Origin: Linnemannia elongata
Lineage: Eukaryota; Mortierellomycota; Mortierellomycetes; Mortierellales; Mortierellaceae
Direction of reading: 5' to 3'
NCBI GenBank assembly: GCA_036320915.1
Contig: JAXBDG010000016.1
Coordinates: 744,001 to 808,000 of the forward strand
Length of the DNA: 64,000 nt
Part shown: positions 30,403 to 63,184 of the stretch, piece after piece
Numbering within the stretch: position 1 is the first letter of the stretch
Layout: the number at the start of each line of letters is the position of its first letter
Position numbers and translations under genes: made by a program
The notes under the pieces: generated by a model
The model's input: only the letters and a program-made list of their open reading frames with translations
What the model was told of the DNA's origin: nothing
The model's database searches: none

Positions 30403-30663
30403 GGCTTTTTTGTGGTATTGATCCTTTTTGTCCTGCTGTTGTTCCGCTGCTTGGGTGGAGTTTCAAGAGTAGAAACATTTGCATATGGATTTTTTATGTT
30501 GTTATGAAAAATAAATGTTCCGGTCACATAGATTTGCATTGCCACCGAGGGACATACTTCAGCCCCCCCATGGCTATCGCTGCATATTTATTTCTTTTGT
30601 ATTCGAAAACACAAGGAAGGCGTAGAAGGAAACTCTATTTGTTTATTTTCCAAGGGAAGGTGC

Positions 30664-33156
30664 TCAGTAGTCCTGGTATTGTCCGTAGAAAAAGGATTCA
30701 CGCTCCCGAGTAACATCCTTCTCGACTGTCAATTGCCGGTACTGTCCTTCCAGCCAGGCAACGTTCACGTTTGCCTCCAGCGCTGACACTTGTCTCTTCC
30801 CGTAAACACTGACACCAAGCAGCTCTCGAAACTTGGGGCACAATAGAACAGGTTTCCCTTCCCCTCCTGCATCCAGAGACGTAACAGAATTGGAAGCCAA
30901 TCCTCGTGGCGTGGAACTTGAACCACCGCACGCCTCAAACGCTCGTTGCCAGGCGGCGTTATCTTGATGCACCCAGTTCTGTGCGATCCATTCCATCTCT
31001 GCTCGCCCACAGAGCTCCTCGTCCAATTGGTATACGACCAACTTCCTCAAGTTCGCTTGCAGAGGTCGCAGGTGGTTGAGCCCAGTCTCCAGGGTCAGGC
31101 GGAGGCAGTCCCACTCCTTGTTGTCGTATCGGTAATCTTGGCGTCCTTCAAGCGTCAACTCCTTCAATCTTGTCAGTCGTCCCAGCTGCTGGCATATTGC
31201 AATCTGGATCTGCGCGCTATGTGTCACGCGCTTCTTGGGCAGAGCCTTGCTGGGTGCTCCTGTAGGCTCTGATCCTGCTGCGGCTGATGCAGAACTCTCG
31301 TCTCCACTATCATCCATGTTCGAGCTGGAGTCAGCATCCGATTCTGAATCGGAAGAGTCCGAGCTGGAGTCCGAGCTGGAGTCATTATCTGAATCTGAAT
31401 CCGAAGAGTCCGACTCTGAAGAGGGGCCCGAGCTAGAGTCGCTAGAGCTCACGTAGCTATCCAAGCAGCTGTCTTCCTGCTTGCCACCATCACCCGATCT
31501 TTGCAGGGTAGGGAGCACTAGCACCTCAATATCCATGGCATGGTACTCGCCCTCGTCGTTCTCCAAGAATTCTTCCCCCTCACCAACCATTCGCCACTTG
31601 TCCTTGCCAACGTCCCAGCGCCAGATCTCACACTCTGGCCAAGCCTGCGTCGGTATAAGGATATGTATCGCAAGAGTTTCCATGCCAGTACACACCCAGT
31701 CGAACCCAAGCAGCTGATTCGCCTCCACAGGAACGCCCAAGGCCTTGAAGCGCCGTAGTGTCGGGACATACCTGAGGAACATGTGGATCGCCGGTGCCAG
31801 TGAGCCGTTGGCACTGATGTCAAGTTCCTGTAAGCCGACCCATTTTTGGGAGGTGTGTCCTCCAAATTGATCGACGAGCGCTGGTGAAGGCGGGACGAGC
31901 CGTATCAGTTCTTGAGGCTGCAATTGGTCGACATTCCATGCAGCCAAGGATTCCAGTTGAGGCGCGTAGTGTTGTAAGAGTAAGTCCCAATCCTCAGGGT
32001 GGAGTTCACGGTGGTGGCTCAGATCGATCTCCGTCAGCTTTGGGCAGGCCTTGATCATCGCCCTCGCAAGCTCCTCCGATGGCCAGAACACAAAAGTCTC
32101 GAATTTATCCAGATCATGGAAAAGATTGTAAATCTGATTTTCAAAGGACACCGGCGAGGGCTTGTAGTCGGTCGAGATGTCGGACGAAACTTGCAGCCGC
32201 TGTAGCACCGGGAATCGTCGACAGAGATGATAGAGGAGCGACCAATCAACTGGAAACCTCTCATTATCGTCTTCCTCCATCTCGTCCAAGTATACCGTCG
32301 GAGAGAAATTGAACAGGGTCAACTTCCGAACAGCGATTGGGCGTGGAGAGATCGTGCCGTTGTGGGAGTTTCTCACAAACTGCTTCCAAGAACTGTTGAG
32401 CCTGTACCGAATGATGAGCTCCTCCAGGTCCCAGCCCAGTGTCGTAGGTTCCAGCGAACGTTCCTGCTCCTGCTCCAGAGGCTCGAATTTGCTCCGCACA
32501 GCCAACAGATCCAACAGGTCCGAGAATCCATTTCTCTCCATATGACAACTGAGCTCTAATCGTCTCAATTGCTGCAGCGGATTACTCCTTAGGGCGGCGA
32601 ATAGGTCACGACACGACGATTGTAAGAGCGACAAGAACTCGAGGTGCTGGAGGTTTGGGTTCTGGGAAATGAGGCCGGCCACGATATCCGAAGGTAAGCT
32701 CGGGCCTGAGTAGAGTCCAAAGCGGAGGTGCACCAAGTTCGTCAGGCTAGTCGGAGGAACACATTCCCACCTTGAAAAGTCGCCCGAATCAAAGGTTCTC
32801 GCCTCTACCATCTCGCTCTGACCATCACTCCCGACTGTCAAGGACTGAATCCGAAAGCACTGCTTCTTGAACTCTTGGACGAAACGAGCCTTCTTTCTCT
32901 GAATGAGCAAGCCCCCTTTCATGTCTGCTTCCTTGGCGCCACCGCTGACACTCGTTTCCTGCGCTTGCTGCTGGACCAGGAAGTCGATGATATCTTGGCT
33001 TGGGATTTGGTAGATCAACCAGGCGACGTGAACACTCCAGGAACGCCAGAGACGAGACACTCGAGCACAGGCATGGAGGGATGGACGATCGAGATGGAGA
33101 AGGACGTTTTGGAGGATCTCTGGGATGGCGATGGCTTCAGGGCTGGAGGATCTCAT
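30664..33156 (-). CDS. F-box/leucine-rich repeat-type protein, paralogue 2
   Basis: Frame is open upstream to 33372, but the ATG at 33156 puts the F-box at residues 9-45 (AIPEILQNVLLHLDRPSL, then CARVSRLWRSWS), as in both neighbours, so I chose it (830 aa). Leucine-rich repeats follow (LTEIDLSHHRELHPEDWDLL, GLQELDISANGSL). A Ser/Asp run of about 60 residues (SSDSDSDNDSSSDSSSDSS) separates them from the shared C-terminal block (LTRLKELTLEG, LRKLVVYQLDEELCGRAE). The Ser/Asp run is a candidate casein-kinase target and is absent from paralogue 1 at the same place. The intergenic space to paralogue 1 is only 261 bp and to paralogue 3 is 246 bp. Confidence 0.87.
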   Translation of the reverse strand: MRSSSPEAIAIPEILQNVLLHLDRPSLHACARVSRLWRSWSVHVAWLIYQIPSQDIIDFLVQQQAQETSVSGGAKEADMKGGLLIQRKKARFVQEFKKQCFRIQSLTVGSDGQSEMVEARTFDSGDFSRWECVPPTSLTNLVHLRFGLYSGPSLPSDIVAGLISQNPNLQHLEFLSLLQSSCRDLFAALRSNPLQQLRRLELSCHMERNGFSDLLDLLAVRSKFEPLEQEQERSLEPTTLGWDLEELIIRYRLNSSWKQFVRNSHNGTISPRPIAVRKLTLFNFSPTVYLDEMEEDDNERFPVDWSLLYHLCRRFPVLQRLQVSSDISTDYKPSPVSFENQIYNLFHDLDKFETFVFWPSEELARAMIKACPKLTEIDLSHHRELHPEDWDLLLQHYAPQLESLAAWNVDQLQPQELIRLVPPSPALVDQFGGHTSQKWVGLQELDISANGSLAPAIHMFLRYVPTLRRFKALGVPVEANQLLGFDWVCTGMETLAIHILIPTQAWPECEIWRWDVGKDKWRMVGEGEEFLENDEGEYHAMDIEVLVLPTLQRSGDGGKQEDSCLDSYVSSSDSSSGPSSESDSSDSDSDNDSSSDSSSDSSDSESDADSSSNMDDSGDESSASAAAGSEPTGAPSKALPKKRVTHSAQIQIAICQQLGRLTRLKELTLEGRQDYRYDNKEWDCLRLTLETGLNHLRPLQANLRKLVVYQLDEELCGRAEMEWIAQNWVHQDNAAWQRAFEACGGSSSTPRGLASNSVTSLDAGGEGKPVLLCPKFRELLGVSVYGKRQVSALEANVNVAWLEGQYRQLTVEKDVTRERESFFYGQYQDY

Positions 33157-33402
33157 GGCGGCTGTCCCTGTCCTTATCCCGTTCCTTGTCAGTTGTTGTC
33201 CTGTAGTCGGTGATGCTTTGATGGTGGTGTTGGTGTTGGAGTAAAAAGGAGCAACTCGTTGTTTGAACAAACAGAAACTAAAAAGAAAAAAGCCTTTGTT
33301 TACTATGCCACGATTTCCTATTTTGGTCAAATGCCACATCTTAGCGCAGAAAATCGTTTCTTTGTGCTGCATAGCGGCCGATATACAAGGTCAGATAATT
33401 CT

Positions 33403-36024
33403 TTAATAGTCCGAGTGGTCAGAATCCGAGTGTTCAGAGCTCGAGTCATAAAAGTCCGAGTAGTCAGAGCTCGAGTCATAAGAGTCCGAGTTGTCCAACT
33501 CTTTGGCCGTCGGTGCCTTGGTTTTGTCCCTCACAACTACCAACTCTGGGCAATAGTACTCCAACCAGGCAATGTTCCCGGCCGCACTCGCAGCATCCAG
33601 CCCCTCTCGTTTTTGCGTATGGACACCAATCAGCTGCCGGAACTTGGAAGGCGGATTTCGCACCCTGTTGCCACCTTCATCCTCATCGGGGATCTCCAAG
33701 TAAGACTGCCGATCCCAAGTATCAAACGTGTGCTGCCAGACCGGATCTCTATGATGAACCCAGTTCTTGGCAATCCATTCCACTTCTGCACCACCGCTCA
33801 GTCCCTCTCCCAATCGATAAACAACCAGCTTCTCGAGATTCGCCTGCAATGGTCGGAGGTAGTCGAGTCCTGTCTCCAGCGTCAAATGGAGGCAGTCAAA
33901 CTTGGCAGATTTCTTGCGTGCCCCTCCAGGATAATAAGGGCCCTCTAACGTCAACTCCTTCAATTTGACCAACCGCCCGAGTTGCTGGCACAGTTGTTGT
34001 TGAGTTTGGGTGTTGTACTCCTTATTCCTCCTGTCCTTCTCCGCCTTGATGCCATTTTTCCGACGTCTCCATTGTGCCATTGCCTCAGAATGCGCCTCTT
34101 CTTCCAGAGTATCCTGCTGCTCGCACCATCTCAAAAATTTCTCATCCTCAAGCGTAACATGGTTGGAATCCCAGATTCTCTCTCTCTTTCTCTCCCTCGC
34201 CTTGATTGCATCCGATGAGACTCGCATCTCCCACAGCTCCGCCGAGTAACAATATTCATCCTCACTCTCCTCACTCTCCGCATCCACATAACGGCCCATC
34301 CTTGGCTGATCCGAAGATTCGAGTTTCTTAGATACACCAAGGATCGACTTGCCACCACCCGTCAGCCACTTGCGAAGATCCGCCTTGGACTTGCCTTTCA
34401 CCTGGGGCGTACTATCCCATTCATGACTCGAATTGTTCCAGCACCATGGATTCAAAACTCTGGCTCGGACTCGTGTCGGCACCATGATATTGATTGCTAA
34501 AACCTCCATGTCTTTGCACGCCCAGTCGGATCCCAGCAGACCAGCACCATCTACAGGAACGCCCAAGGCTCTCAGGATCCTCAGCGTCGGGACATACTTG
34601 AGGAACAAGTGGACCACGCTGGCACACTTCCGATTGGCGCTGATATCCAACTCCTGAAGACCGGCCCATTTTTGTGATGGATGAGGGCCTTTCTTGAGAA
34701 CGACTCCGGGACTCGCGGGAACTAGATGTCGTAGGGCACTGCAGTCCATGCGACTAACACTCCAACAGACCAGGGACTCCAACTGAGGTGCATAACGCTT
34801 CAAAAGATCCTCCCAGTGTATATCGTCGAGTTCCCGCTGGTGGCTCAGATCGATTGCTCGAAGGTGCGGACAAAATAGCTTGAGTTTTTGGGAAAGCCTC
34901 CACGGCGGCGAGAGCCATCCTTGATGACTCAGCTGGAAACATGTCGCTCTTATAATCTCCCGGACTGGCAGCGGCGAGGGCTCCCGGATCTTGGTATGGT
35001 CTGGAGAAATGCGCACACGTTCGAGGAGAGGTAGCCTTTGGAAAAGGTGGTAGAGGACGGACTTGATCTCACCTGGCTCGTCGTCCCATGCCGCGTACTG
35101 GCGCATGTCGAAACCTTCAAGAGTAAGAGACCGAAGGGAGAGCTTGTAAATAGGAGCCGACTCATCAAAGAGGACATTACGCAGAAATCCATGGAAGGGG
35201 ATATCGTTCTTTGTTGGATTGGCGTTCTTGATTGTCAACTCCTCCAGGTTCCAGTTTGGCATCATCCTCAGGACTGCCGCTCTTTCTTCTTGTATATGTG
35301 GGACGGTATCTCTGAGCGACGCAAGGACCAAGGGGCTCTCCTTCCGGAGCCGCTCCTGCAACTTGTCTCTCTGAACCAACAAGATCCAAAACTCCAGAAA
35401 TCCCCATGCGTGATCCGTCAATTGGAGGTTGAGGCGACGGAGATGCTGAAGGGGGCAAGAGATTAGCGCCCGGAGTCCTCGGTAACCTGGATGATGTTTT
35501 CCGGAAGCGTAATGAAGTTCCTCAATCATAGGGTTCTGGGCGAGGATGTCCCGGAAGACTTTGTTGGGTAGTGAATCCCACCAGTCGTAGTGTTGTGAAG
35601 CACACAAAAGGCGGACGTTAAGGCGGATGAGGTTCGTTAGACCTGCTGGCACGGCGCTCTCCCACTGGACGACCTTGCCGATATCAAAAGCCTCCCCATA
35701 CTCCTTCTTGCCGCTCCAGGCATTTCCAATTGTCAATGACCGGAGCCCGGCGCAACGTCCACGAAACTCCTGCACGGCCTGAATACTAGCAACTGATTGA
35801 CCCTGAGGCCCACCGGGTTCGCCCTCTTTGCGCCGAGCCAAGTACTCGAGAATGTCTTTGCTTTGAATGAATGAGTGTGCAGCGACATCCAATGAGAGTG
35901 CCCTCCAGAACCGCGAGACCTGTGCACAGATGTCGAGGGAGGGTCGATCGAGATGGAGGAGGATGTGGTGAAGAATCTCCGGGATATCGATGGGATTTGC
36001 GCGTGGGTTGAGTATAGTCTCCAT
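33403..36024 (-). CDS. F-box/leucine-rich repeat-type protein, paralogue 3
   Basis: Single frame of 873 aa from ATG 36024. The F-box is at about residues 13-48 (DIPEILHHILLHLDRPSLD, then CAQVSRFWRALS). Repeats include LRAIDLSHQRELDDIHWEDL and GLQELDISANRKC, aligned with the other two copies. The C-terminal block is conserved (LVKLKELTLEG, LEKLVVYRLGEGLSGGAE). It ends in a Ser/Asp/Tyr tail (SDYDSSSDYSDFYDSSSEH) with no counterpart at the ends of the other two copies. The central part has a charged coiled segment (RERKRERIWDSN, KAEKDRRNKEYNT). Tandem, same strand, intronless: local duplication followed by divergence of acidic inserts. Confidence 0.87.
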   Translation of the reverse strand: METILNPRANPIDIPEILHHILLHLDRPSLDICAQVSRFWRALSLDVAAHSFIQSKDILEYLARRKEGEPGGPQGQSVASIQAVQEFRGRCAGLRSLTIGNAWSGKKEYGEAFDIGKVVQWESAVPAGLTNLIRLNVRLLCASQHYDWWDSLPNKVFRDILAQNPMIEELHYASGKHHPGYRGLRALISCPLQHLRRLNLQLTDHAWGFLEFWILLVQRDKLQERLRKESPLVLASLRDTVPHIQEERAAVLRMMPNWNLEELTIKNANPTKNDIPFHGFLRNVLFDESAPIYKLSLRSLTLEGFDMRQYAAWDDEPGEIKSVLYHLFQRLPLLERVRISPDHTKIREPSPLPVREIIRATCFQLSHQGWLSPPWRLSQKLKLFCPHLRAIDLSHQRELDDIHWEDLLKRYAPQLESLVCWSVSRMDCSALRHLVPASPGVVLKKGPHPSQKWAGLQELDISANRKCASVVHLFLKYVPTLRILRALGVPVDGAGLLGSDWACKDMEVLAINIMVPTRVRARVLNPWCWNNSSHEWDSTPQVKGKSKADLRKWLTGGGKSILGVSKKLESSDQPRMGRYVDAESEESEDEYCYSAELWEMRVSSDAIKARERKRERIWDSNHVTLEDEKFLRWCEQQDTLEEEAHSEAMAQWRRRKNGIKAEKDRRNKEYNTQTQQQLCQQLGRLVKLKELTLEGPYYPGGARKKSAKFDCLHLTLETGLDYLRPLQANLEKLVVYRLGEGLSGGAEVEWIAKNWVHHRDPVWQHTFDTWDRQSYLEIPDEDEGGNRVRNPPSKFRQLIGVHTQKREGLDAASAAGNIAWLEYYCPELVVVRDKTKAPTAKELDNSDSYDSSSDYSDFYDSSSEHSDSDHSDY

Positions 36025-36540
36025 GACACGATGACGCGTAGTGTTGGGCTATTTGATTTTGAAGCTGGACCTGGTGACAGCCAGAGAAGGTGCGAAAAGA
36101 CACTTTTGAAAAATCAAAAAAAAAAAAAAAAAAAAAAAAGGACCCGTCAGTGTGGGAAAATCTTATTTTTTTTATCGATTCACATCTTATTTGTGTTGGT
36201 TGTGCCTGAAACTGATTTTCATACTGAACAATCAATCAATTGGCCCAATCAATTGGCCCCACCGTCAAAAACTATTGGAACACTCGCTATGAACAACACA
36301 ACTATGGGTTGTCGAAGGTCGTTGCCCTTCTATCGTTTCCCACATACTGATGCTCTAAGCAAGGTAAGAGTAGCAAATGTTGGCCCACAAACGACTTGAA
36401 GAAAACTGTGATCAAATTTAGGTTTATTCAATCTGGTTTCCACGCCAAACATGTCTATGCTCTTGAGTAACTCTCAACCAAACGACCTATACAAAAAGAA
36501 ACTTTCAGTAAAAGACTTCTTCGTCTCGCAGATTCGTCGC
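36025..36540. other. Intergenic with A-run and a small coding-like fragment
   Basis: Holds an A-run at about 36117-36139, a direct repeat of AATCAATTGGCCC near 36233-36257, and a short forward frame 36290-36364 (GCRRSLPFYRFPHTDALSK) followed by GTAAGA. The peptide looks like the middle of a THAP-type zinc finger (FYRFP) but is too short to call; probably a transposon or gene scrap. Confidence 0.4.
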
Positions 36541-52663: not shown

Positions 52664-52705
52664 AGGCCTCTATTTTCAGTAAGCCGCAATCTGGCTTTAT
52701 AAAAA
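52664..52705 (+). promoter_or_regulatory. Array promoter module, copy 1
   Basis: GGCCTCTATTTTCAGTAAGCC then TATAAAA at 52698, 151 bp before the ATG of the broken first copy. Same order as in the other array genes: GCCTTT-like box, TTTC, then TATA. Confidence 0.6.
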
Positions 52706-52848: not shown

Positions 52849-53279
52849 ATGGACAGGAACGAACTTGTAGCCCGGATCAAGCTCATCGCCGGCAAAATTG
52901 AGCTCCTCCAGCAAACAGAAAACCTACTGCTCCAAAACCTGTTCACTGGTCTTGAGGGTGCCAACGCTTTCTCCATCGCCTTCGAACCGCAATCTCATCA
53001 CTATAACCTCTCTTCCGTCCGCGAAAATATCTACGATCTTGGGGTCAACACTGCGACGTCATCGCTTCTCTTTGAAAGGTCGACTTTGACTTGGCGTTAG
53101 AATTGAACAGTGCGTTCTTTCACAGCATGCCGATGCGGCTGAAACAGATCCGAGTTTGAACTCCTCTTATACGATGCCAAGGAATATACGGTTAAAGAAA
53201 GGAACGCGGCCCACGCCAACTACAACCGCGAGTTGGTCACAAAGATCAAACGATTCTTTGACTATTACCCTGGTTGCTA
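52849..53279 (+). pseudogene. Array paralogue 1, broken copy
   Basis: ATG 52849 begins like the family (RNELVARIKLIAGKIELLQQ) and reaches VRENIYDLG. The frame then slips: HCDVIASL, a TGA, and KVDFDLALELNSAFFHSMPM follow in a second frame, and FELLLYDAKEYTVKERNAA then ANYNRELVTKIKRFFDYY in a third, ending at TAA 53279. At least two frameshifts and one stop. The promoter module and an AATAAA at 53361 remain, so loss is recent. Confidence 0.8.
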
Positions 53280-53360
53280 AGCAGTACGACCGAGGGTCAA
53301 GCCTAGGAACAGCTCGCGGCCAGTGCCAGTCAAGAACTTGACTCAGATTCTACACTTTAG

Positions 53361-53366
53361 AATAAA
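53361..53366 (+). terminator. Poly(A) signal of array copy 1
   Basis: AATAAA after CTACACTTTAG, resembling the array's ACATCTGAATAAA motif, about 82 bp past the stop. Confidence 0.5.
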
Positions 53367-53751
53367 GAACGCCTTCCCCCGTCATCTAACAGAAGTTTCA
53401 AAAAAAAGAATGACTCGAACATTCAGTTATTTATGATCACCCAAGTAGCAGAGGCCCTCAAATGTTTGCTATCATTGATATTGGTAGGAAAACCGAAATG
53501 GCGATGAGAAACAACAAAAATAAGAGCAAAGAAAAGAATAATGTAAAAAGAGTCTCGATCAATAGAACGCAGAATGAAGGAGAGACTGTGGGTGAAAGGA
53601 AAGGGTGTAATGATAACTAACCAGAGCATGTCAATCTACTGTTTGCGTCATTAACAATCATTTCCGCACGCGTGCGTAAGAAGAATAGGGTGAGAGTGAC
53701 CCCACCCGTACTTAGCACATCTGACAACTTGTCAGCGTCGAAAACCAGCAC
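53367..53751. other. Array spacer 1-2
   Basis: A/G-rich stretch resembling the spacer before copy 6 (GATCAATAGA.CGCAGAAT.AAG and TAGCACATCTGACAACTTGTC blocks). No gene. Confidence 0.55.
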
Positions 53752-53800
53752 AAAAAAAAGGCTTTGCTTTTACCATGTCACCCTCCTTCGTATATAAAAG
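53752..53800 (+). promoter_or_regulatory. Array promoter module, copy 2
   Basis: A-run, GGCTTTGCTTTTACCATGTC, CCTCCTTCG, then TATATAAAAG (53791). TATA is 85 bp before the ATG. Confidence 0.7.
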
Positions 53801-53877
53801 TTGCCCTCTTCTTTCTCACTTTTCTCTTTAACTATCATTCTCTTTCATTCCTCTCCTTCACTTTCACTCAAACACAT

Positions 53878-54342
53878 ATGTCCGCCTCCGAAGTGGCTAG
53901 ATGTCAAAGACTCCAAAAGCGAATTATTGGTCTCTCCAGGCACATCGCAAGTCTCGAGGAGACAGAACATGTCTGCCTCAGCCTGATTCAAACCCAAACC
54001 GCCAATGGCGTCCGCGTCTTTAACACCAACCTCGCGATGCAACAGGCGAGGGACAATCTCTACATTATCCGTCAACAGATCTGCGGTTCTGCTCTCGAAC
54101 ATTATGAACTGATTCAAACCCTCCGTCAAATGGATATCAATCTGGGGACGTTGCATAGCGTTGCTGTGTCAAATAAGATGGTGGAGCGACTGGAGCAACT
54201 CCGCTTTGAAGAGAGGGCTTACCAAGCGGATACTAATGCACTTAAAGCGGGGAATCAACAACACCTGCAAAACACCAGTTATTTGATCAAGAAAGTCGCC
54301 GACTACTTCGCAAATGACCCATACAAGTACAAATACTTCTAA
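53878..54342 (+). CDS. Array paralogue 2: small all-alpha protein of unknown function
   Basis: 154 aa, single exon. I chose ATG 53878 because the upstream frame is C/T-rich leader and TATA lies 85 bp before it. Two N-terminal amphipathic helices (RLQKRIIGLSRHIASLEETE, then CLSLIQTQ) are followed by the family core: FNTNLAMQQARDNLYIIRQQ, ALEHYELIQTLRQMD, MVERLEQLRFEERAYQ and LIKKVADYF, ending NDPYKYKYF. No signal peptide, membrane helix, cysteine pattern or catalytic motif. Hydrophobic residues recur every three to four positions, so a helical bundle is likely. Its closest relative is copy 6, which also ends DPYKY. No known family recognised. Confidence 0.82.
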   Translation: MSASEVARCQRLQKRIIGLSRHIASLEETEHVCLSLIQTQTANGVRVFNTNLAMQQARDNLYIIRQQICGSALEHYELIQTLRQMDINLGTLHSVAVSNKMVERLEQLRFEERAYQADTNALKAGNQQHLQNTSYLIKKVADYFANDPYKYKYF

Positions 54343-54393
54343 GACCTTCCAGCAGGACAGATACAAGAACTACTCGCGAGCATTACATTGCTG

Positions 54394-54399
54394 AATAAA
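54394..54399 (+). terminator. Poly(A) signal of array copy 2
   Basis: AATAAA in CATTGCTGAATAAAA, 52 bp past the stop. Confidence 0.6.
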
Positions 54400-55296
54400 A
54401 AAATAGCTTTCGCTTTTTGTATTCCTTCTTTCGCTACATTCATAAACCAATGAAACGAAGAACAAAACCCCAAAATAGGTTCTTGGCTATTCAAGTGCTG
54501 TAGATAACATAAGAAGTGGGAGATAGCCGAATGTTTTCGGCTTGTGTGGTTTGTATCTCGTCATGAATTGATCCACCAGATGGAAGAGGCGACCGATCTC
54601 CTTGGGAACGAAAACATGGAACTACGACACAAGAGATATGAAAAGATGGTGTTTTCTGTCTCGGAAAGAAAAGAAAACGAGAAGAGCGACCAAATGTGGT
54701 CAAAACAAGCTGCAAATTTGAGACGGGCTGCTGCCTTTTGCCAGACAATGTAGCTTTCTTCCGCTGAATGGCTCAAGGGTTTCAAGGAAACTGTGTCGAT
54801 ACCCTACAAGCTCAGCTCCTCAGGTTGCCCAGGGCATTATAGAATGAGTAGCTGAGGTGGTCCTGGGCGACTCTTCACGCCCTTCGTACCTTGCAAACTC
54901 CGCTAGGTATACTCAGGCCTCAAAAATAAAAGTACTTCACTCTCCTTTCTTTAAGCAAGTAGAATGCCGGACATATGAGTGACCCTCGGTTTCGCAATAT
55001 CGATCAACTCGCCCGTCATAGAATAAAGAAAAAAAAGAGCTCTCAGCGTTCCCGTCTTCTTATATATAATCTCTCATAAAAAAGAGGAAAGGCCGTTGGA
55101 GGTAAAAAAAAACACGTTTTCCATCAACTGAAATAGAACACAAATAAAACCGTGTAAAATAGTAGACTGTGTGATCCACTGCTTTTGTTTTGTCACACTT
55201 CATCCTTTATATGTGTATAGAAAAACCCAGAGAATGAACGACCTATGCGTGCCCTGCAACTTATGCTCCCTTCACTTTGACCTCAAACCGTACAAG
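54400..55296. other. Array spacer 2-3
   Basis: About 900 bp. A short forward frame (54544-54753, IHQMEEATDLLGNENMELR) is coding-like but has no promoter module or family match. Otherwise A-rich. No other gene. Confidence 0.45.
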
Positions 55297-55339
55297 AAGC
55301 CTTTATTTTCAGCATGCTCCTTTCATTCTCTAATAAAAT
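55297..55339 (+). promoter_or_regulatory. Array promoter module, copy 3
   Basis: AAGCCTTTATTTTCAGCATG, then CTCCTTTCATTCTC, then TAATAAAA (55331) in the TATA place; 155 bp before the ATG. A (CT)n leader follows at 55392-55429. Confidence 0.65.
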
Positions 55340-55392
55340 CCCACCACACTTCCATTTTTTCTCTGCTTTCTTTTCTTCTCTCCTCACCCAAG

Positions 55393-55432
<40 letters not shown>

Positions 55433-55485
55433 AACTCTTAGTCCATACTACATTATCTACACCTTCATTTATAACTACTCCACCC

Positions 55486-55929
55486 ATGACTCAATTACAA
55501 GCTCTCCGAGGCCAGATCAACTTCGCCTACCACAGGATCTTGGATCTCGAGCGGATTGAAGCGAACTACCTCAGGACATTCCAAATCCAACTCGACGAAC
55601 CCAACGGCGAGGTCTTATTTGACGCCAGTCCTTCCAACCAGGACGATCGAGACAGACTGTATAATGTCCGCAATCAAATCTACGATGTCGCATTCAAGCA
55701 CGCCCGCCTGATCGAGTCCCTCCAAGAGATCGACGCCATCTTGGCCGATAAACTGCGGTCCTCCGTGGCTCGCAGCATGCTACAGCGATTTCATCAACTT
55801 CGTCGTGAGGTCCGCGCGTACCTTGCTCAGCAAGGCGCGGCTATGCAGGCGGGCCTAAACAATGCCAACAAGAACCACTTGTTGATGGCCAAGATTGCAC
55901 AGTCCTTCAACTTTGCCACAGGCCACTAA
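55486..55929 (+). CDS. Array paralogue 3: small all-alpha protein of unknown function
   Basis: 147 aa, single exon, ATG 55486 in CCACCCATGA. Starts with a helix (LRGQINFAYHRILDLERIEA) and NYLRTFQ. The core is FDASPSNQDDRDRLYNVRNQ, VAFKHARLIESLQEIDAILA, MLQRFHQLRREVRAYLAQQG and NHLLMAKIAQSFNF. It belongs to the larger subgroup (copies 1, 3, 4, 5, 7), most like copy 5 in its ends (LMAKI..SFN.A.G). Codons are mostly C/G-ending in an AT-rich setting, which argues for selection on the protein. The pogo-type transposon lies 106 bp downstream, just past its poly(A) signal, so the gene itself is uncut. Confidence 0.84.
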   Translation: MTQLQALRGQINFAYHRILDLERIEANYLRTFQIQLDEPNGEVLFDASPSNQDDRDRLYNVRNQIYDVAFKHARLIESLQEIDAILADKLRSSVARSMLQRFHQLRREVRAYLAQQGAAMQAGLNNANKNHLLMAKIAQSFNFATGH

Positions 55930-56009
55930 ACAGGTCCAAAAGGACGATGATAGGGTCTGTTCAGGAACCAGGTCAAGGCGTCCTCTTAGACATGGCACTT
56001 ACACATCTG

Positions 56010-56015
56010 AATAAA
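56010..56015 (+). terminator. Poly(A) signal of array copy 3
   Basis: ACACATCTGAATAAAAAAAA, 81 bp past the stop and 20 bp before the transposon's TA. Confidence 0.65.
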
Positions 56016-56035
56016 AAAAAGAAGTTGCTATTGTA

Positions 56036-56060
56036 CAGTCAAACCTCTCCTATAGCATAC
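56036..56060 (+). repeat. Left terminal inverted repeat
   Basis: CAGTCAAACCTCTCCTATAG then CATAC, next to TA at 56034. Confidence 0.95.
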
Positions 56061-56168
56061 GCTTTTGCCGCAAGGGTTGATATGCTATAGGAGAGGATAT
56101 GCTACAGGGCTAAGCCGCAGTCACATAGCCCTTAATAAATTTGAATACGCCCCTTAACAACTTTGCAA

Positions 56169-58129
56169 ATGAGGTACGCTCGCACCACCTGTACGGAGAT
56201 GACATCGCCTCATTCTACCATGGAGTCGCCTGATGAGTTGTTTTCGAGGAGCATCGCTTCCTCTCCCATTTCTGCTGCTTCGTCGTCAGAGTCCTCATCT
56301 GATGCAGAAGAGTCTACGCCTACGCAAGGGATAACAGCTGCAAAACACACTTCCGCAAAAAGGGTAAGCGATGCCAGATATTTCTCAAACGTTGCTTGAT
56401 GAATCACAAGCAAATTCTAATATGTCTGTAACATAACTTTTTGTGTAGTGTGCGAAAAGTTCTCTTACCAACGAGCAGAGAAAACGACTTTGTGAGAGGT
56501 TTGAAGGGGGAGGAATATCACAGAAGGCTTTAGGTGTATGGGGTATGCAAGAATTCAAATTATCAAGACCCATCCAGCAACCGGCACTTAGTCGTATTCT
56601 CCAAAAAAAAAAAACGCTCAACAACTTGACCCCATCCCAATTGGATTCAAAGCGAGTAAACGAGGTCACCAACAAGCAACTGGACGATGAGCTTGCCGCC
56701 TGGGTTTTGAATTGTCAGAGGATAGGGGTGGCTGTCACCGGCAATATTATCATTGAAAAGGGCAAGCAACTCAGTGAGACTAGGACACCCTGCCCGACCT
56801 TTTCTACAGGATGGCTTCAAAAGTTCATCAAGCGACACAACCTCCAGTCTATCAAGTTGCATGGAGAGTCAGGATCTGTGGACCAAGCAGCCTTACAAGC
56901 AGCCTTACCGATGCTACAACAAACGATCGCTCAGTTCGCCCCCGTAGATGTTTACAACATGGACGAGACTGGACACTACTATTGTCTTGCACCCACTCGC
57001 ACGATTGCATCCGGCAAAGTCGCCGGGTTCAAAAAGTCCAAGTCAAGAATCTCTATTGCATTGACGTCGAACGCGACTGGAACAGATAAGAGACCGCTAC
57101 TTTTTATCGGAACCGCAGTAAACCCCAAGTGCTTTGGCCGCAAGACTGCCAGTCAGCTTGGGCTTCAATACTACCACAACAGCAAGGCTTAGATGACAGG
57201 TAATACAGATATTATAGACAAGGACGGAGCAATCATTCATTATTATGTTCTAGATTGATTTATTGATATATGATAAAGGTGTCATTTTTCGGTCCTGGTT
57301 GAAGAAGTTTGATAGGGCAATGCAGGTCGAGAACCGAAATATCCTTTTGATTCTTGACAATGCTTCTTCCCACAACTACACAGGATTGACCCTCAACAAT
57401 ATCACCATATTGATGCTTCCGCCAAATATGACGTCGGAAATTCAACCCATGGATGCAGGGATTATTGCTGCTTTTAAATGTCATTATCGTCGTCGCCACT
57501 CCCAGGCCGCTGTCAACAAAGCAGATCGAGGTGAACGCAACATCTACAAGGTCCATGTTTTGCAAGCGATGGCTTGGAGCAGACGAGCATGGGCTTCTAT
57601 TGAGTCGGCCAAGATCAGGAACTGCTTCAACCACACCAATTTGATGGGTTCCAGCAACGAGATCCCTTCAATCGACCAACATTTGCAGGAGGCCCTTGAT
57701 GATATCGATCATAACCTAAGCCTACTTCCAAAGGACCTGCGGATTCCTCGAGAGGCGTTCATTGATCCAGTGGGCGAGAACGGGAGCATACATATCCAAC
57801 TGAGTGACACTGAGTTGTTGGCCTTGCCTGTTGACGGAACTGACGGGATGGATAAGGACAACGGAGAGGACAAGGGGCAAGAGGAGGAAGAGGAGGACGA
57901 GGAGCAAGATGATGAACCCCCATTGCCAAGCAGGGCAGAGATTCTTGCTGCCATCGATCTCACTATGCAGTACATCGATGGAGATCTTGGCCCGATTGAA
58001 TACCCTGAAGAAGGAGACACCTTTGCAGTTACACTCAAGAAATTGAAGGGTTGGCGTGAAGCCCTGCACAAGAGCATCCTTTCGAGCATGACTCAACCCA
58101 CCCTCCATTCGTTCTTTCGGCCCCAGTAG
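56169..58129 (+). pseudogene. pogo-type transposase with internal amber codon
   Basis: Three exons, 56169-56363, 56449-57199 and 57279-58129, give 598 codons plus stop, with one TAG at 57190-57192. Order: a Ser-rich N-terminus; a CENP-B-N/psq-type helix-turn-helix (LTNEQRKRLCERFEGGGISQ, KALGVWG); a Tc5-type DNA-binding domain (LAAWVLNCQRIGVAVTG, TGWLQKFIKRHNLQS); and a DDE_1 catalytic core with the three Asp in VYNMDETGHYYC, NILLILDNASSHN and IQPMDAGIIAAFK. An acidic tail (EEEEEDEEQDDE) follows. The TAG falls in HNSKA-stop-MTG, where relatives have Trp, so TGG to TAG is the simple reading. Splicing MTG to VIFRSWLKKF restores the family's usual order. The other codons are open. Confidence 0.9.
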
Positions 58130-58212
58130 GATATAGGTCAACAGAGCTGGAATAAATATGTGAATACTCAGTACCCTACTCTATTGCTTATAGCATATTG
58201 CAACAAGGTCGA

Positions 58213-58323
58213 CATGCTATAGGAGAGGTCGATAGCATACCCACATGGTATGCTATAAGCCCAGTCTAAATTTCATTTTTCAACAAAAAAATATGCTATA
58301 GGGGAGGTTTATGCTATATGAGA
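58213..58323. repeat. Right subterminal repeats of the transposon
   Basis: Copies of (T/C)ATGCTATAGG(A/G)GAGG and shorter TATGCTATA forms at about 58213, 58248, 58290, 58311. The left end has one at about 56083. These are probable transposase-binding sites. Confidence 0.7.
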
Positions 58324-58348
58324 GTATGCTATAGGGGAGGTTTGACTG
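58324..58348 (-). repeat. Right terminal inverted repeat
   Basis: Reverse complement CAGTCAAACCTCCCCTATAG then CATAC; one mismatch to the left end; TA follows. Confidence 0.95.
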
Positions 58349-58611
58349 TACCAAAAAAATGTGATATTGTGTCAAGCACAGGATGAGAATGCAATCGTAG
58401 GAAGTGAGGAAGGAAGCCTGAAAAAAGTAAATTGCCATTACCGAGCTGAATGACTATTAAAGACTGAGAGGTACTTGAACGTTTTCTTCGTGTGTTCTTT
58501 ATCTCATTGATAGTGGTATGAGAACACCATTGAAATAGAACTATGCATGGAACACTTTTATCAATCAAACAACATTCGTCTCATAACCCATAATTCCACC
58601 CTGAAAGCATA
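58349..58611. other. Array spacer 3-4, right of the transposon
   Basis: Original spacer sequence resumed after the element. No gene. Confidence 0.5.
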
Positions 58612-58666
58612 AAAAAATCATAACGCCTTTGTTTTCTGCGTGGCTCCCTTCTTCTGGTATAAAACC
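58612..58666 (+). promoter_or_regulatory. Array promoter module, copy 4
   Basis: AAAAAAATC, ACGCCTTTGTTTTCTGCGTG, GCTCCCTTCTTCTGG, TATAAAA (58659); 134 bp before the ATG. A (CT)n leader follows at 58710-58743. Confidence 0.7.
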
Positions 58667-58710
58667 TTTTGCCGCCTTCACGCCTTCTTACTGTTCTCAT
58701 TCTTTTTCTC

Positions 58711-58746
<36 letters not shown>

Positions 58747-58792
58747 CAAACGTTTTTCAACACCTCTTACACCTAAATCCACCGTCCCTACC

Positions 58793-59233
58793 ATGAACGA
58801 GCAGATTCTAGCAGCCCACATTCACCTTGTCACCTCCAAGATCGCAACACTAGAACTTGCAGAAGTGCATTATGTCCGTGCACTCCACGTCCCATCGAAT
58901 GATCCTAGAGGGCAATACGACTTCAACGCCACGCTCGCCATGCAAGCCGAGCGCCAAAGGCTCTTCGCCGTTCGGACAGAGATCTACGATCTCTCAATCC
59001 TGCACAGCAACCTAATGACATCTCTCCGAGCTATTGACGCGCCCCTAGCGACGCGACTTGGGTTTTCCATCTACCAGTCAATGCAGCTGCGATTGAATCA
59101 TCTCCGCCGTGAAGAGTTTGGGTATAAGACTCAACAAGGCGCTATTCTGGAGGGGAACAAGCATCACGCCGATAACAACCGCAGCTTGATCGCCAGGATC
59201 ACGGCTTCCTTTGATCCTGCAGAAGGATACTAA
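58793..59233 (+). CDS. Array paralogue 4: small all-alpha protein of unknown function
   Basis: 146 aa, single exon, ATG 58793. The N-terminal helix (AAHIHLVTSKIATLELAEVH) leads to YVRALHVPSNDP. The family core reads FNATLAMQAERQRLFAVRTE, LMTSLRAIDAPLATRLG, MQLRLNHLRREEFGYKTQQG and HADNNRSLIARITASFDPA. Shares APLA with copy 5 and HAD.NR.LIA.I with copy 7. The frame is open further upstream through the (CT)n leader, but that part is simple sequence and lies after the TATA box, so I do not count it. No secretion signal or enzyme motif. It is the first array gene to the right of the transposon. Confidence 0.84.
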   Translation: MNEQILAAHIHLVTSKIATLELAEVHYVRALHVPSNDPRGQYDFNATLAMQAERQRLFAVRTEIYDLSILHSNLMTSLRAIDAPLATRLGFSIYQSMQLRLNHLRREEFGYKTQQGAILEGNKHHADNNRSLIARITASFDPAEGY

Positions 59234-59319
59234 AACCGCGCGGCCCGAATAACAAGCCTGTAAACTCTCCGTAGCCAACGCCGTTCAATAACATAGGATT
59301 ATGACCCTTCACATCTATG

Positions 59320-59325
59320 AATAAA
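59320..59325 (+). terminator. Poly(A) signal of array copy 4
   Basis: CACATCTATGAATAAAAATA, 87 bp past the stop. Confidence 0.6.
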
Positions 59326-59703
59326 AATAATTGGTTTGCTTTTGTGCAACATTCTTGAGAAGAAAGGAGTGTCACGCAATCATCAAAAAAAAATGAGAAT
59401 CAGAGCCAAAAGAAAAAAAAATGTGAACGCTTCATCACCGATAAGCTGTGCGAAAGCTCATAGACTGAGAGAAGAGACACTGACTATCTCATTATGTTTG
59501 GTTCCTTTTCTCGATCTCTGATATAGTCATGTCATTGTGAAATGTATGATAAAGTTGTCGGACAAGCAGGCTGGCATCCCCAAAATGCAAAAGAAAAAGA
59601 AAAAAGCAAAAAAATCTTTCTGTCAGCTGGCAAAGAATCTAAAAAGTCATAGAAATAGAACACGCAGAAAATGAACAACCAACACACATTCTACGTCAAT
59701 TAA
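59326..59703. other. Array spacer 4-5
   Basis: A-rich, no gene. Confidence 0.5.
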
Positions 59704-59764
59704 CCCGCCTTTCTCAAAGAAGAAAAAAACAATTAAAATGCAGGTAGGCCCCCTAGTATAAATC
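59704..59764 (+). promoter_or_regulatory. Array promoter module, copy 5 (degenerate)
   Basis: CCGCCTTTCTC, an A-run, CAGGTAGGCCCCCTAG, then TATAAAT (59757), 120 bp before the ATG. The CATG part is missing; the weakest match in the array. Confidence 0.45.
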
Positions 59765-59876
59765 CCACAGAAGGCCCGTGGTGATGTCCACCTTCTCTAT
59801 TTCTTTCACCTCTCTCTCTCTCTCATAAGCACGACATCACTTTTCTCTCTATTCACAATCGGCGCACAAATATACA

Positions 59877-60368
59877 ATGTCTCGCCTTCCCAATAAACCC
59901 GCTTCTCCACCCATTACCCCTCCCACGACTCAAAAGGAAGCCATTCTGGGCCAAATTAACGTCTGCTCCCGCGCAATCATGGACCTTGAGCGATTAGGGG
60001 AGCGCTACGCCGGCGAACTCCAGATCCGATCCAATGACTCCAGCAGTCAGCGAGTCTTTGACTCTACCCTCAACAACCAAGCCAGTCGGGCTGAACTCTA
60101 TCAAGTCCGCACGCAGATCTGTGAACATGCACTCACCCACGGCAGACTGATCGCGGCCTTGTCCAAGATCGACGCCCCCCTGGCAGCTCAACTCAACCTC
60201 GCCTTATTCCAGAAAATGATGCGGCTCTTCGACCAGCTGCGTCGCGAAGTCGACGCTTATCTTGCAGAGCGCGGCGCAGGTCTTCAGAAGAACATGGTCC
60301 ACGTTGACAACAATGGTGCCTTGATGGCCAAGATCACCACATCGTTCAACTTGGCCGCTGGCCCCTAG
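59877..60368 (+). CDS. Array paralogue 5: small all-alpha protein of unknown function
   Basis: 163 aa, the longest member, single exon. It has an extra Pro-rich N-terminus (LPNKPASPPITPPTTQ) before the usual first helix (ILGQINVCSRAIMDLERLGE). The core is FDSTLNNQASRAELYQVRTQ, ALTHGRLIAALSKIDAPLAA, MMRLFDQLRREVDAYLAERG and NGALMAKITTSFNLAAGP. Closest to copy 3 over the last third. The Pro-rich extension could come from leader sequence turned coding. No targeting signal. Family and function unknown. Confidence 0.84.
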   Translation: MSRLPNKPASPPITPPTTQKEAILGQINVCSRAIMDLERLGERYAGELQIRSNDSSSQRVFDSTLNNQASRAELYQVRTQICEHALTHGRLIAALSKIDAPLAAQLNLALFQKMMRLFDQLRREVDAYLAERGAGLQKNMVHVDNNGALMAKITTSFNLAAGP

Positions 60369-60453
60369 ACCGCATGATCAAGCAAGAAGCCTACAAAGCA
60401 CCTCATAACCAGGGCAATACAAGAACCTGAGCTCTGGCTCCACACATCTTTGA

Positions 60454-60459
60454 AATAAA
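60454..60459 (+). terminator. Poly(A) signal of array copy 5
   Basis: CACACATCTTTGAAATAAAA, 86 bp past the stop. Confidence 0.6.
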
Positions 60460-61043
60460 AACAATGGTTTTAGTTTTGTGTAAACTCACTGAACAGAAGA
60501 TGCAGATAAAAATGAAAAAAGAAAATAAAATGTCTTGACAATTTTAAAAAGTATTATGATCACCGAGGACCTACAGACTTGGAATGTTTTTCTATCTGTT
60601 TTGCTTTGATAATGGCATAGGAATGCCGACGAATTGACAACTAAGGAAGGAACAAAGCACAAAGAACAAAGAAAAAAAAGGATCGGTTTGTGGGTGCGGG
60701 TGTCGGTGTGTCATTGGAAAGTATGAGAAGGCCGACAAAGTGACGAAGGGACTGGAAAGAAAACAAAGAAATGTAACTTCAATCAATAGAGGTACGCAGA
60801 ATAAAGAATAGACGTGAGTGAAAGAAAGGATCAATGGCTACAAATCAGAGTACCACAAAATATACGTTTGACCCACTACCTTTCGCGCTTCTTTCAGCAT
60901 AATTGAACAAAGACAATGGGGTCAGCCCACTACCTATGCCTTTCGCGCTCCTTTCTTTATAGGTGATTAATTTACAAGGAGGTAAAAGAGTCTCACGAAC
61001 ACCTAGCACGTCTTACAGACTATCAGCGTCGAAGTGACAAGCA
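60460..61043. other. Array spacer 5-6
   Basis: Resembles spacer 1-2 (TCAATAGAGGTACGCAGAATA, ACTATCAGCGTCGAAGTGAC). Also a local direct repeat: CCCACTACCTTTCGCGCT at 60872 and CCCACTACCTATGCCTTTCG at 60926. No gene. Confidence 0.55.
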
Positions 61044-61097
61044 CAAAAAAATACATGCCTTTGTTCGCAACATGTCGCTCTCCTTCTCGTATAAAAG
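61044..61097 (+). promoter_or_regulatory. Array promoter module, copy 6
   Basis: AAAAAAATACATGCCTTTGT, TCGCAACATGTCGCTCTCC, TTCTCG, TATAAAA (61090); 98 bp before the ATG. Best match to copy 2. Confidence 0.7.
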
Positions 61098-61187
61098 CTG
61101 TCTCTTCCCTCCTCTTTTTTTTCTTTATCTCTCTCATTACTTTTCTTCACCAATTCAACATCACTCTTTCAAACACATTCGCAATAC

Positions 61188-61649
61188 ATGGTCACTCCTC
61201 TCGAAAAAGAACACCTCGTTAACGGGATTACCGCTCTCGCCCGCCATATCCAAGACCTTGAGTCAGAAGAATTGCGTCTCCTCAGCATCTTTCTGATACC
61301 GAAGGCTCCTGGCAAGTACTTCTTTGACGCCACCCTTAAGAGACAAAACGAGCGTGACATGCTCACCGCAGTCCGCCAGAAGATTTGCGACACGGCCGTC
61401 GAACACTCTAAGCTGAATATTATCCTCCGTCAATACGACGACCATCTGGGGACCACGCTTAACCAGGGCGTATGGAATACAATGCTGAAGCGACAGGTTC
61501 AACTCGATCATGAAGAGATCGCCTACTTGGATAGCTGCGATGCACTCCAGGCGGAACTCAAACACAACGTTGAGAACACTCGTCTTGTGCTCCGCATGGT
61601 CACAGCATTCTTGGAACATGACCCCTACAAATACCTGGTACGGAACTAA
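61188..61649 (+). CDS. Array paralogue 6: small all-alpha protein of unknown function
   Basis: 153 aa, single exon, ATG 61188 in GCAATACATGG. First helix LVNGITALARHIQDLESEEL, then RLLSIFLIP. The core is FDATLKRQNERDMLTAVRQK, AVEHSKLNIILRQYDDHLGT, MLKRQVQLDHEEIAYLDSCD and LVLRMVTAFLEHDPYKYLV. Pairs with copy 2 in sequence (ARHI..LE, LRQ.D..LGT.L, DPYKY), in promoter and in the upstream spacer, so the two come from a segmental duplication that jumped over three other members. It has the most acidic N-terminus. No secretion signal or catalytic motif. Confidence 0.83.
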   Translation: MVTPLEKEHLVNGITALARHIQDLESEELRLLSIFLIPKAPGKYFFDATLKRQNERDMLTAVRQKICDTAVEHSKLNIILRQYDDHLGTTLNQGVWNTMLKRQVQLDHEEIAYLDSCDALQAELKHNVENTRLVLRMVTAFLEHDPYKYLVRN

Positions 61650-61693
61650 GACAGTAGGATAGAAGAACGCGAGTCTAGTCCTCTACATATCTG

Positions 61694-61699
61694 AATAAA
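61694..61699 (+). terminator. Poly(A) signal of array copy 6
   Basis: CTACATATCTGAATAAAAAA, 45 bp past the stop. Confidence 0.65.
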
Positions 61700-62529
61700 A
61701 AAAAGGTTTTTATCTCCTGTACTGTACGCAGTAACTGAAATGAAAGGAAGGATGAGGCTTAATAAACAAAAAGGAGCTTAGCCACCCAAGAGCTTTAGAA
61801 AACATAATGAATATGAGATGGCTGAACGTGTTCTGCTGCCTGGTTTGTCTTTTGTCCCGGATGATAGCGTGAGAAAGCAAAGGATTCACACCTAAAAATA
61901 ATAAACAGATGTAGACCCCACAAGGAACTTAAAAAAGACAAAAAAAAAATGGCCGAATGCTTTGGCTGCAGGAGTGAGGTCCTCAAAAAAGGGAGACACT
62001 CGTGCTCATTGATATCAAGACCATAACGATACGAGCAATGGAGGGCGTGCGTTTTGGTGCAAGAGACAAAAAAAAAAAAAAAAGCGGAGTGTCGTTTTGA
62101 CCACAAAGAACAACGAATTTTGGTGGTTTGACAGAGACCGAGGTAAGGGTACAATCGCAGTCATTGGAGAGACCACAGGCTACTCCACCCAGCACAGGCT
62201 CCGAACTTTCGGTAGACCATCGCCTCATATCAGTTAATGTAGCTTGTATCCACCGCAGGGTTCAAGGTTATCACGATGACTCCCTCGTACTTAGCAATAT
62301 CATTTCGTTGGTCTGCCCGAAGCATCGAAAGACATGTTGCTGAAGGTAGTCTTGAGTGCGTTATTCACGCGTCTTGTTCCTTGTAAATTATCCTTTGCAT
62401 TCCTTATTTTGTACGCGTGAAGGGAAACTGGGGTACCTAAAGAGACCACTGAGATAGAATAGTTCACTGAGGTATAGGATACCATTGCGGATGCCACATC
62501 TGCTAGATCAACTGCCATGGAATCAAGTG
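61700..62529. other. Array spacer 6-7
   Basis: About 830 bp, A-rich, with an A-run at 62070-62084. No gene recognised. Confidence 0.5.
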
Positions 62530-62580
62530 CAAAAAAAACGCCTTTCATCGTCAGCATGCCAGTCCCTCTCCTGTATAAAA
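62530..62580 (+). promoter_or_regulatory. Array promoter module, copy 7
   Basis: CAAAAAAAACGCCTTTCATC, GTCAGCATGCCAGTCCCTCTC, CTG, TATAAAA (62574); 143 bp before the ATG. Confidence 0.7.
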
Positions 62581-62716
62581 CCCCATTACAACCATCTACC
62601 TTTGTTTCTATCTATCTCACCCTCTCTCTCCGTTTCTTTTCCATAATCCTTTTTTTTCTCTCCATTGTAACTCACACATCACCACCACCATCTACCTACG
62701 CATCGCTGCCTCAACA

Positions 62717-63184
62717 ATGCAGAAAAACGAAATCGTATCCCGAATCAAACTCGCCTGCCGTGACATCGAGGCCCTTGAGAAAAACGAAGAAATATACCTC
62801 GACTTACTCCAGCGCCCATCCAACAACCGCTCAGAAGAGACGGTCTTTAATGCCACCCTCGACATGCAACCACACCGCCGCGCCTTGTTTGAAGTCAGAA
62901 AGCGGATCTTCGAACACGCCCTCGAACACCACAACTTGATCAATTCTCTCCGCACGATCGACGAAGGCCTGGCAAAGTCGAGTAACTTTGTTTTCGCGCA
63001 CATGATGTTGAAGCGGATGGAACAACTCCAGCGTGAAGTTAATGAGTACGATTCTCAACAGGGTGCGGTTGTGGAGAGGAACAAGGACCACGCCGACAAG
63101 AACCGCGAGTTGATCGCTAAGATTAAAAGTATTTACGACGCTCCCGAGCCTCACCCAAAGTCTCGATTTTGGAAACGAAAGTAG
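62717..63184 (+). CDS. Array paralogue 7: small all-alpha protein of unknown function
   Basis: 155 aa, single exon, ATG 62717. The N-terminus (QKNEIVSRIKLACRDIEALE) closely matches the broken copy 1 (RNELVARIKLIAGKIELLQ). The core is FNATLDMQPHRRALFEVRKR, ALEHHNLINSLRTIDEGLAK, MLKRMEQLQREVNEYDSQQG and HADKNRELIAKIKSIYDA. It alone has a basic C-terminal tail (HPKSRFWKRK), which could aid nuclear localisation or binding to acidic partners. Last member seen; only a degenerate AATAAA-like signal (TTGAGTAAAATATAAA, 63258) follows. Function unknown. Confidence 0.84.
   Translation: MQKNEIVSRIKLACRDIEALEKNEEIYLDLLQRPSNNRSEETVFNATLDMQPHRRALFEVRKRIFEHALEHHNLINSLRTIDEGLAKSSNFVFAHMMLKRMEQLQREVNEYDSQQGAVVERNKDHADKNRELIAKIKSIYDAPEPHPKSRFWKRK

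Follow-up and report, generated by a model that had tools for sequence, protein, structure and literature searches.

The array and its relatives

The window considered here is a 64,000-nucleotide stretch of Linnemannia elongata DNA (GenBank assembly GCA_036320915.1, contig JAXBDG010000016.1, positions 744,001 to 808,000 of the forward strand), which lies on a 1.57-Mb contig of a 51.1-Mb assembly of 32 contigs. Between positions 52849 and 63184 it carries a single cluster of seven loci of one small protein family, held within 10.4 kb on the plus strand: a broken copy, c1, and six intact ones, c2 to c7, which are intronless open reading frames (ORFs) of 146-163 amino acids (aa). A first-pass annotation of the same DNA had described a tandem array of seven same-strand intronless genes, one of them broken, and this is borne out by the ORFs and by genome searches. 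The copies are as follows:

52849..53280, + strand: c1, broken copy of the c7 type, 83 open codons and then stops
53878..54342, + strand: c2, intact, 154 aa, subfamily II, tail DPYKY (ORF, genome search, model)
55486..55929, + strand: c3, intact, 147 aa, subfamily I, long branch (ORF, tree)
58793..59233, + strand: c4, intact, 146 aa, subfamily I (ORF, genome search, tree)
59877..60368, + strand: c5, intact, 163 aa, Pro-rich N-terminal tail, subfamily I (ORF, searches, tree, model)
61188..61649, + strand: c6, intact, 153 aa, subfamily II (ORF, tree)
62717..63184, + strand: c7, intact, 155 aa, subfamily I, orthologue P0022 in L. schmuckeri (ORF, genome search, tree)

With a transposon between c3 and c4 left aside, the copies start about 1.0-1.6 kb apart. 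Searches of the whole genome with c5, c2, c7, and c4 return 6, 6, 7, and 7 places, every one of them in the array, and in these searches the intact copies match one another with expectation values (E) of 2.5e-33 to 2.2e-7. The array is not a product of chance. Such a search scores the best candidates only, and a very remote copy could escape it; a further one, with the L. schmuckeri relative P0023, finds no other paralogue, only the six intact copies and a chance-level place on contig C23 (E = 0.59). Protein identity between intact copies is 29-44%, and the motifs quoted in the first-pass annotation are present in the order given there. Its statement that the proteins have no cysteines is wrong, since four of the six intact copies carry one to three (c2 three, c5 and c6 two each, c7 one; c3 and c4 none). 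Copy c1 reads open for 83 codons, passes into another frame for its middle third, and ends back in the first frame, with two TGA and one TAG in-frame stops in the genome searches with c7 and c4. Those two queries find it at E = 1.0e-8 and 9.4e-4, respectively, and c5 and c2 do not find it. When its outer pieces are searched apart, the best match is an L. schmuckeri protein of the c7 type, with c7 next. The break may be a true lesion or an assembly error.

Three protein searches in a set of 5.8 billion sequences returned 7, 20, and 16 proteins, 24 of them different (P0001-P0024). Two are the window's own (P0001 is c5 and P0008 is c4), leaving 22 relatives, each named “hypothetical protein” wherever a name is given. 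For 16 of the 22 the organism is Linnemannia, Mortierella, or Haplosporangium; the other six come without an organism name. A taxonomy check places Haplosporangium and Linnemannia in the Mortierellaceae, to which we take the Mortierella relatives to belong as well. The third search, with a 24-row profile at E ≤ 10, added four new members, none outside this group, but it failed to recover 8 of the 20 that the second had found; because it drops true members, the absence of relatives outside the Mortierellaceae is weak evidence. As far as the searches reach, the family appears restricted to the Mortierellaceae (Linnemannia and near kin), and deeper or missed relatives may exist.

The family is real, and it is unnamed in the libraries searched. 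In Pfam, searched with 28 members and HMMER filters on, 20 families appear at E ≤ 10, the best at 0.0079 and in one member; a six-copy profile finds nothing below E = 0.33 among PDB sequences; NCBIfam gives chance matches only (best E = 0.037); and PADLOC gives no convincing full-length match, two of six proteins having one partial match each (E = 0.0026, 14-15 bits). In a literature search that covered titles and the openings of abstracts and did not extend to the relatives' locus tags, none of the papers listed describes the family. A viral or prokaryotic origin was considered and rejected: among scans suited to close relatives only, tblastn with c4 in viral_contigs gave 11 pattern stretches and with c5 in genome_contigs 73, none of them confirmed, and the fold search in BFVD described below, which reaches common folds only, has no match.

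The tree of the family has 28 rows, namely the 22 database proteins and the six intact window copies, with P0001, P0008, and the broken c1 left out. P0002, P0015, and P0019 entered the tree with their over-long N-termini trimmed off; alignments A3 and A4 have the rows in full. The tree has two halves, each with support of 100/99, which separate c3, c4, c5, and c7 (subfamily I) from c2 and c6 (subfamily II); the tool warns that long branches meet, and the root is for drawing only. Copies c2, c4, c5, c6, and c7 join proteins of other species before they join one another, which indicates that most of the duplications predate the sampled species and that gene conversion has not homogenised the array. 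The three protein searches recovered a single orthologue for c7 (P0022) and none for c3, which sits on a long branch beside the c5 group. Copy c2 is 98% identical to L. elongata P0011, and c6 is about 0.025 changes per column away on the tree from another L. elongata protein. Path lengths from the window copies to the orthologue in the lgn14122 genome differ by copy, at 0.13 for c4, 0.29 for c5, and 0.48 for c2. Because the L. schmuckeri protein 006634 and an H. gracile protein sit outside both c2 and c6, where the fork is drawn open, the split between these two copies may be younger than L. schmuckeri. Locus tags run consecutively in L. schmuckeri (BG015_006633, 006634, and 006635, of the c7, c2/c6, and c5 types) and in L. 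hyalina (KI688_006657 and 006658, of the c6 and c5 types), and the tag numbers alone thus suggest that the array is conserved in both. The birth-and-death evolution proposed in the first-pass annotation is supported by the one broken copy, the orthologue groups across species, and the lack of a recovered c3 orthologue.

In all 15 pairs of intact copies, identity is lower at codon position 3 than at positions 1 and 2, and the proportion of nonsynonymous differences (pN) is below that of synonymous ones (pS). Nei-Gojobori distances for the same pairs are 0.46-0.81 for nonsynonymous sites (dN) and 0.96-1.98 for synonymous sites (dS), with ratios that are rough because dS is high, yet lie at 0.33-0.72 in every pair and not near 1 across the copies. 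In a neutral simulation at 0.6 substitutions per site, with indels not counted, about 1% of descendants are free of stops. The copies have been kept distinct under purifying constraint.

Fold and conserved residues

AlphaFold2 models of both subfamilies, with a predicted local distance difference test score of 88.9 for c5 (subfamily I) and 90.4 for c2 (subfamily II), consist of helix 1, a beta hairpin, and helices 2-4, arranged in a compact four-helix bundle. Helix 4 has 19-25 residues, and the modelled chains end 6 and 9 residues beyond it. Foldseek finds no match in the PDB at E ≤ 0.001 for either model, nor does a BFVD fold search with the c5 model alone at the same threshold; likeness to known structures is at the level of the bundle only (closed syntaxin, STAT coiled coil, 14-3-3). 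With no significant match to a known family or fold, the earlier description of an unrecognised small helical family holds, except that the short two-strand hairpin in both models makes “all-alpha” incorrect in the strict sense. The family and the fold are well supported, and the fold, as modelled, is ordinary. The STAT coiled-coil domain is part of a large transcription factor, where it is joined to DNA-binding and SH2 domains, whereas the family is the bundle alone, without any DNA-binding or SH2 Pfam domain in its ORFs. The 14-3-3 fold is a dimeric one of nine helices; the family has four main helices and no sequence match to it, and since no column of helix 4 reaches 90%, there is no conserved Arg-Tyr there, unlike in 14-3-3.

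Over the 28 rows, nine columns are invariant and ten more reach at least 90%. Seven of these 19 are charged and one is Gln; in c5 numbering, the eight are E38, E41, Q68, R71, R78, D99, R117, and E124. Y128 is invariant, and H88 is found at 89%, with Gln in its place in P0005, P0006, and P0007. R71, R78, D99, M114, L121, and Y128 occur in all 28 rows, a descriptive count, as the set was derived from the same rows. Neither helix 4 nor the tails have any column at 90%. Helix 1 carries E38 and E41 in its second half, helix 2 carries Q68, R71, and R78 in its first half, and helix 3 carries R117, E124, and Y128 in its second half. In an up-down bundle, this topology would place seven of the eight charged or Gln columns toward the hairpin end, D99 being the exception, in terms of topology and not of distance. 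At the spacings 71-74-78-81-85-88 and 114-117-121-124-128, the charged residues share a heptad register with conserved Leu, Ile, and Met, and this common 3-4 spacing means that the charged residues of helices 2 and 3 appear to be on the packing face. Within the c5 group, the proteins other than c5 itself keep E41 and R117, save for R117 in P0005.

Promoters and 3' ends

A TATA-like box stands 85-155 nucleotides (nt) before the ATG in all seven copies; that of c3 reads TAATAAAA. AATAAA is found about 45-87 nt past the stop in six copies, and c7 has none within 200 nt. The first-pass claim that each copy has its own promoter and poly(A) signal is therefore right as to the promoter boxes and, as to the signals, for six copies of seven. 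Copies c2, c3, c4, and c6 share an element like GCCTTTnTTTTCAGCATG whose end lies 15 nt ahead of the box, and c7 has it with one extra base inside. The promoter features are as follows:

52666..52704, + strand: c1 core promoter, weak element, TATAAAA at 52698 (ungapped identity to the others 0.19-0.39)
53760..53802, + strand: c2 core promoter element and TATA box (repeat family D4)
55299..55341, + strand: c3 core promoter element, box AATAAAA (repeat family D4)
58625..58667, + strand: c4 core promoter element and TATA box (repeat family D4)
61001..61099, + strand: c6 extended promoter block (repeat families D4 and D11)
62540..62580, + strand: c7 core promoter element, with one extra base, and TATA box (box and element comparisons)

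In the 36 nt that precede the box, copies c2, c3, c4, and c6 share an ungapped identity of 0.58-0.67 in all six pairs, a level that none of 140 control boxes reaches (highest value 0.47). Between c7 and these four copies it is 0.44-0.50, reached by 0 to 3 of the 140 controls. When 90 nt are aligned locally, the pairs c2-c6, c4-c6, c6-c7, c2-c7, and c3-c4 score above all 77 control TATA sites; part of the control sequence (L012-L038) was drawn from genome-wide pattern matches of the element. Identity at codon position 3 is 0.38-0.53 for the pairs among c2, c3, c4, and c6, below the promoter identity in all six, which suggests that the element is maintained. The first 33 nt of the c6 block also match positions 53710-53742, before c2, at 79%. 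Used as a DNA query, the c6 promoter retrieved nothing but itself, missing even the similar c2 block, and at the single one-mismatch place outside the array among the places listed (L009) none of three ORFs of at least 80 aa is family-like. Gapped global alignment of the promoters was set aside as uninformative: it gives 71-87% for all pairs, including those with c5, which are no better than shuffles. Runs of CT dinucleotides occur in the 5' leaders of c3 (55397-55433), c4 (58712-58745), and c5 (59811-59825).

Proposed function and surroundings

The best reading of these data, to which we give a probability of about 0.45, is that the array encodes a lineage-restricted family of soluble helical adaptors with a conserved polar site. 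The function is what we infer from sequence and models, and any partner is proposed at low certainty; an adaptor role is suggested because binding is common work for helical bundles. Tandem amplification occurred mostly before the sampled species split, the c2/c6 split being perhaps later, and the copies have been kept distinct by purifying constraint. They would be soluble intracellular adaptor or binding proteins, in which E38, E41, Q68, R71, R78, R117, E124, and Y128 could form one common recognition site or salt-bridge core, while each copy would owe a partner of its own to helix 4 and the tails (Pro-rich at the N-terminus of c5, DPYKY at the C-terminus of c2 and c6). Copies c2, c3, c4, c6, and probably c7 would be driven jointly by the element that precedes the TATA box. 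A more specific version, speculative and unlikely, has a conserved cluster of three Arg, three Glu, and Tyr at the bundle end binding a common charged ligand or phosphorylated peptide, with the tails of the tandem copies sorting the signal to different partners and most copies under one promoter element.

Several observations weigh against the adaptor reading. The fold is of a common type, and the hydrophobic moments of the helices are not significant (permutation p 0.11-0.58), which leaves spacing as the sole basis for taking the charged set to be buried. In c5 of this genome, position 41 is Gly and position 117 is Leu; c5 alone has lost both of these residues of the set, possibly a salt-bridge pair lost together. 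One residue of the set is missing in each of P0005 (Gln at 117), P0019 (Gly at 124), and P0023 and P0024 (Pro at 68), and P0020 is short, positions 38 and 41 being outside its span. Averaged over its length, helix 1 varies as much as helix 4 (mean entropy 1.84 versus 1.74). Copy c5 is without the promoter element and c1 has a weak form of it; ungapped identities are 0.19-0.39 for pairs with c1 and 0.19-0.22 for pairs with c5, within or near the control range. The dedicated regulation proposed at first pass is thus partly borne out: the common element is seen in c2, c3, c4, and c6, less clearly in c7, and weakly in c1, and is lacking in c5. A genome-wide regulon was rejected, since the 35-place pattern with up to three mismatches matches 132 places, against 138 for the reversed control.

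Other readings have been considered. The closed Qa-SNARE (yeast Sso1/Sso2) is the top VIA-align match of both models, with four antiparallel helices alike and 135-140 residues aligned, and the copies could be soluble bundles derived from it or imitating it, which bind a Sec1/Munc18 or Sec3-type partner and tune exocytosis. However, the coiled-coil domains of STATs score within 1 Z (12.5 and 13.4), and about 13-14 is usual for helical bundles according to the tool. Against the same idea stand the Foldseek result, the fact that neither Syntaxin (PF00804) nor SNARE, the Pfam families of Qa-SNAREs, is among the 20 listed for the 28 members, and an hhalign probability of 0.1% to part (90 aa) of one syntaxin-like exon in this genome. 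The family differs from Qa-SNAREs in the hairpin between helices 1 and 2 and in its helix 4 of 19-25 residues, after which the two modelled chains soon end with no hydrophobic stretch; the C-terminal membrane anchor of Qa-SNAREs is not in the family, whose alignment has no long hydrophobic tail. We consider a syntaxin-like role improbable. The tandem array, the broken copy, and the unequal path lengths to the lgn14122 orthologue would fit a family for conflict or self-recognition, in which selection by partners or rivals makes the copies diversify. Yet none of the 15 paralogue pairs has dN/dS above 1 (dS being high), orthologues are kept across species, and no toxin- or effector-like partner was noticed in the nine neighbouring ORFs scanned, the neighbourhood having been surveyed in part only. 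This makes the reading rather unlikely, and nothing singles out the conflict, stress, or self-recognition role suggested at first pass, the PADLOC matches being weak and partial.

The copies could also be small secreted proteins, with a signal peptide gained from a true start farther upstream, as the database models P0002, P0015, and P0019 start upstream with a hydrophobic N-terminus and an upstream ATG in c3 allows a reading of 231 aa. In c2, c4, c5, c6, and c7, however, the start used is the first ATG after an in-frame stop, and the extension of P0015, which begins MSPSFLYK, looks like a translated promoter element and TATA box. CT-rich leaders may stay open in frame through composition, leading gene callers to extend starts. 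Secretion is disfavoured and very unlikely, because an in-frame ATG upstream is lacking in five of the six intact copies and one longer database model appears to translate a promoter. That these are decaying, functionless orphan genes, open by chance, would agree with one broken copy in seven and with fast divergence, but it is made extremely improbable by frames that stay open at the dN values given, by pN below pS in every pair, by the charged columns conserved in 28 rows, and by a promoter element conserved in at least four copies.

Lineage-restricted families are common in fungal genomes, and few of them have a functional handle. Here the handles are a confident predicted fold, a near-invariant charged set open to mutation, seven copies clustered so that one deletion could remove them all, and a promoter element to track. 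The fold being ordinary, the charged set and a compact, testable system are what make the proposed adaptor family of interest; if the site binds a ligand, it would be an example of a young family gaining a recognition function.

Around the array, three adjacent long ORFs on the minus strand (27523-36048, 881-979 aa), each with an F-box near its N-terminus, make up a second tandem family about 17 kb upstream, and a minus-strand exon at 18055-18549 has an AAA-ATPase_like domain (PF09820, E = 9e-13). On the downstream side are a multicopper oxidase and a phosphoesterase-family gene (L008:710-1744 and L008:5284-6081), with no sign of a link to the array. The array itself is interrupted by one feature from outside the family:

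56033..58351, + strand: Tc5/pogo-type DNA transposon between c3 and c4, with HTH_Tnp_Tc5 and DDE_1 domains

It has inverted arms of 31 nt (94%, flanking TA included). The ORF of its C-terminal transposase part is found at six other places in the genome at 96-99% identity, which suggests that the transposon has been recently active.

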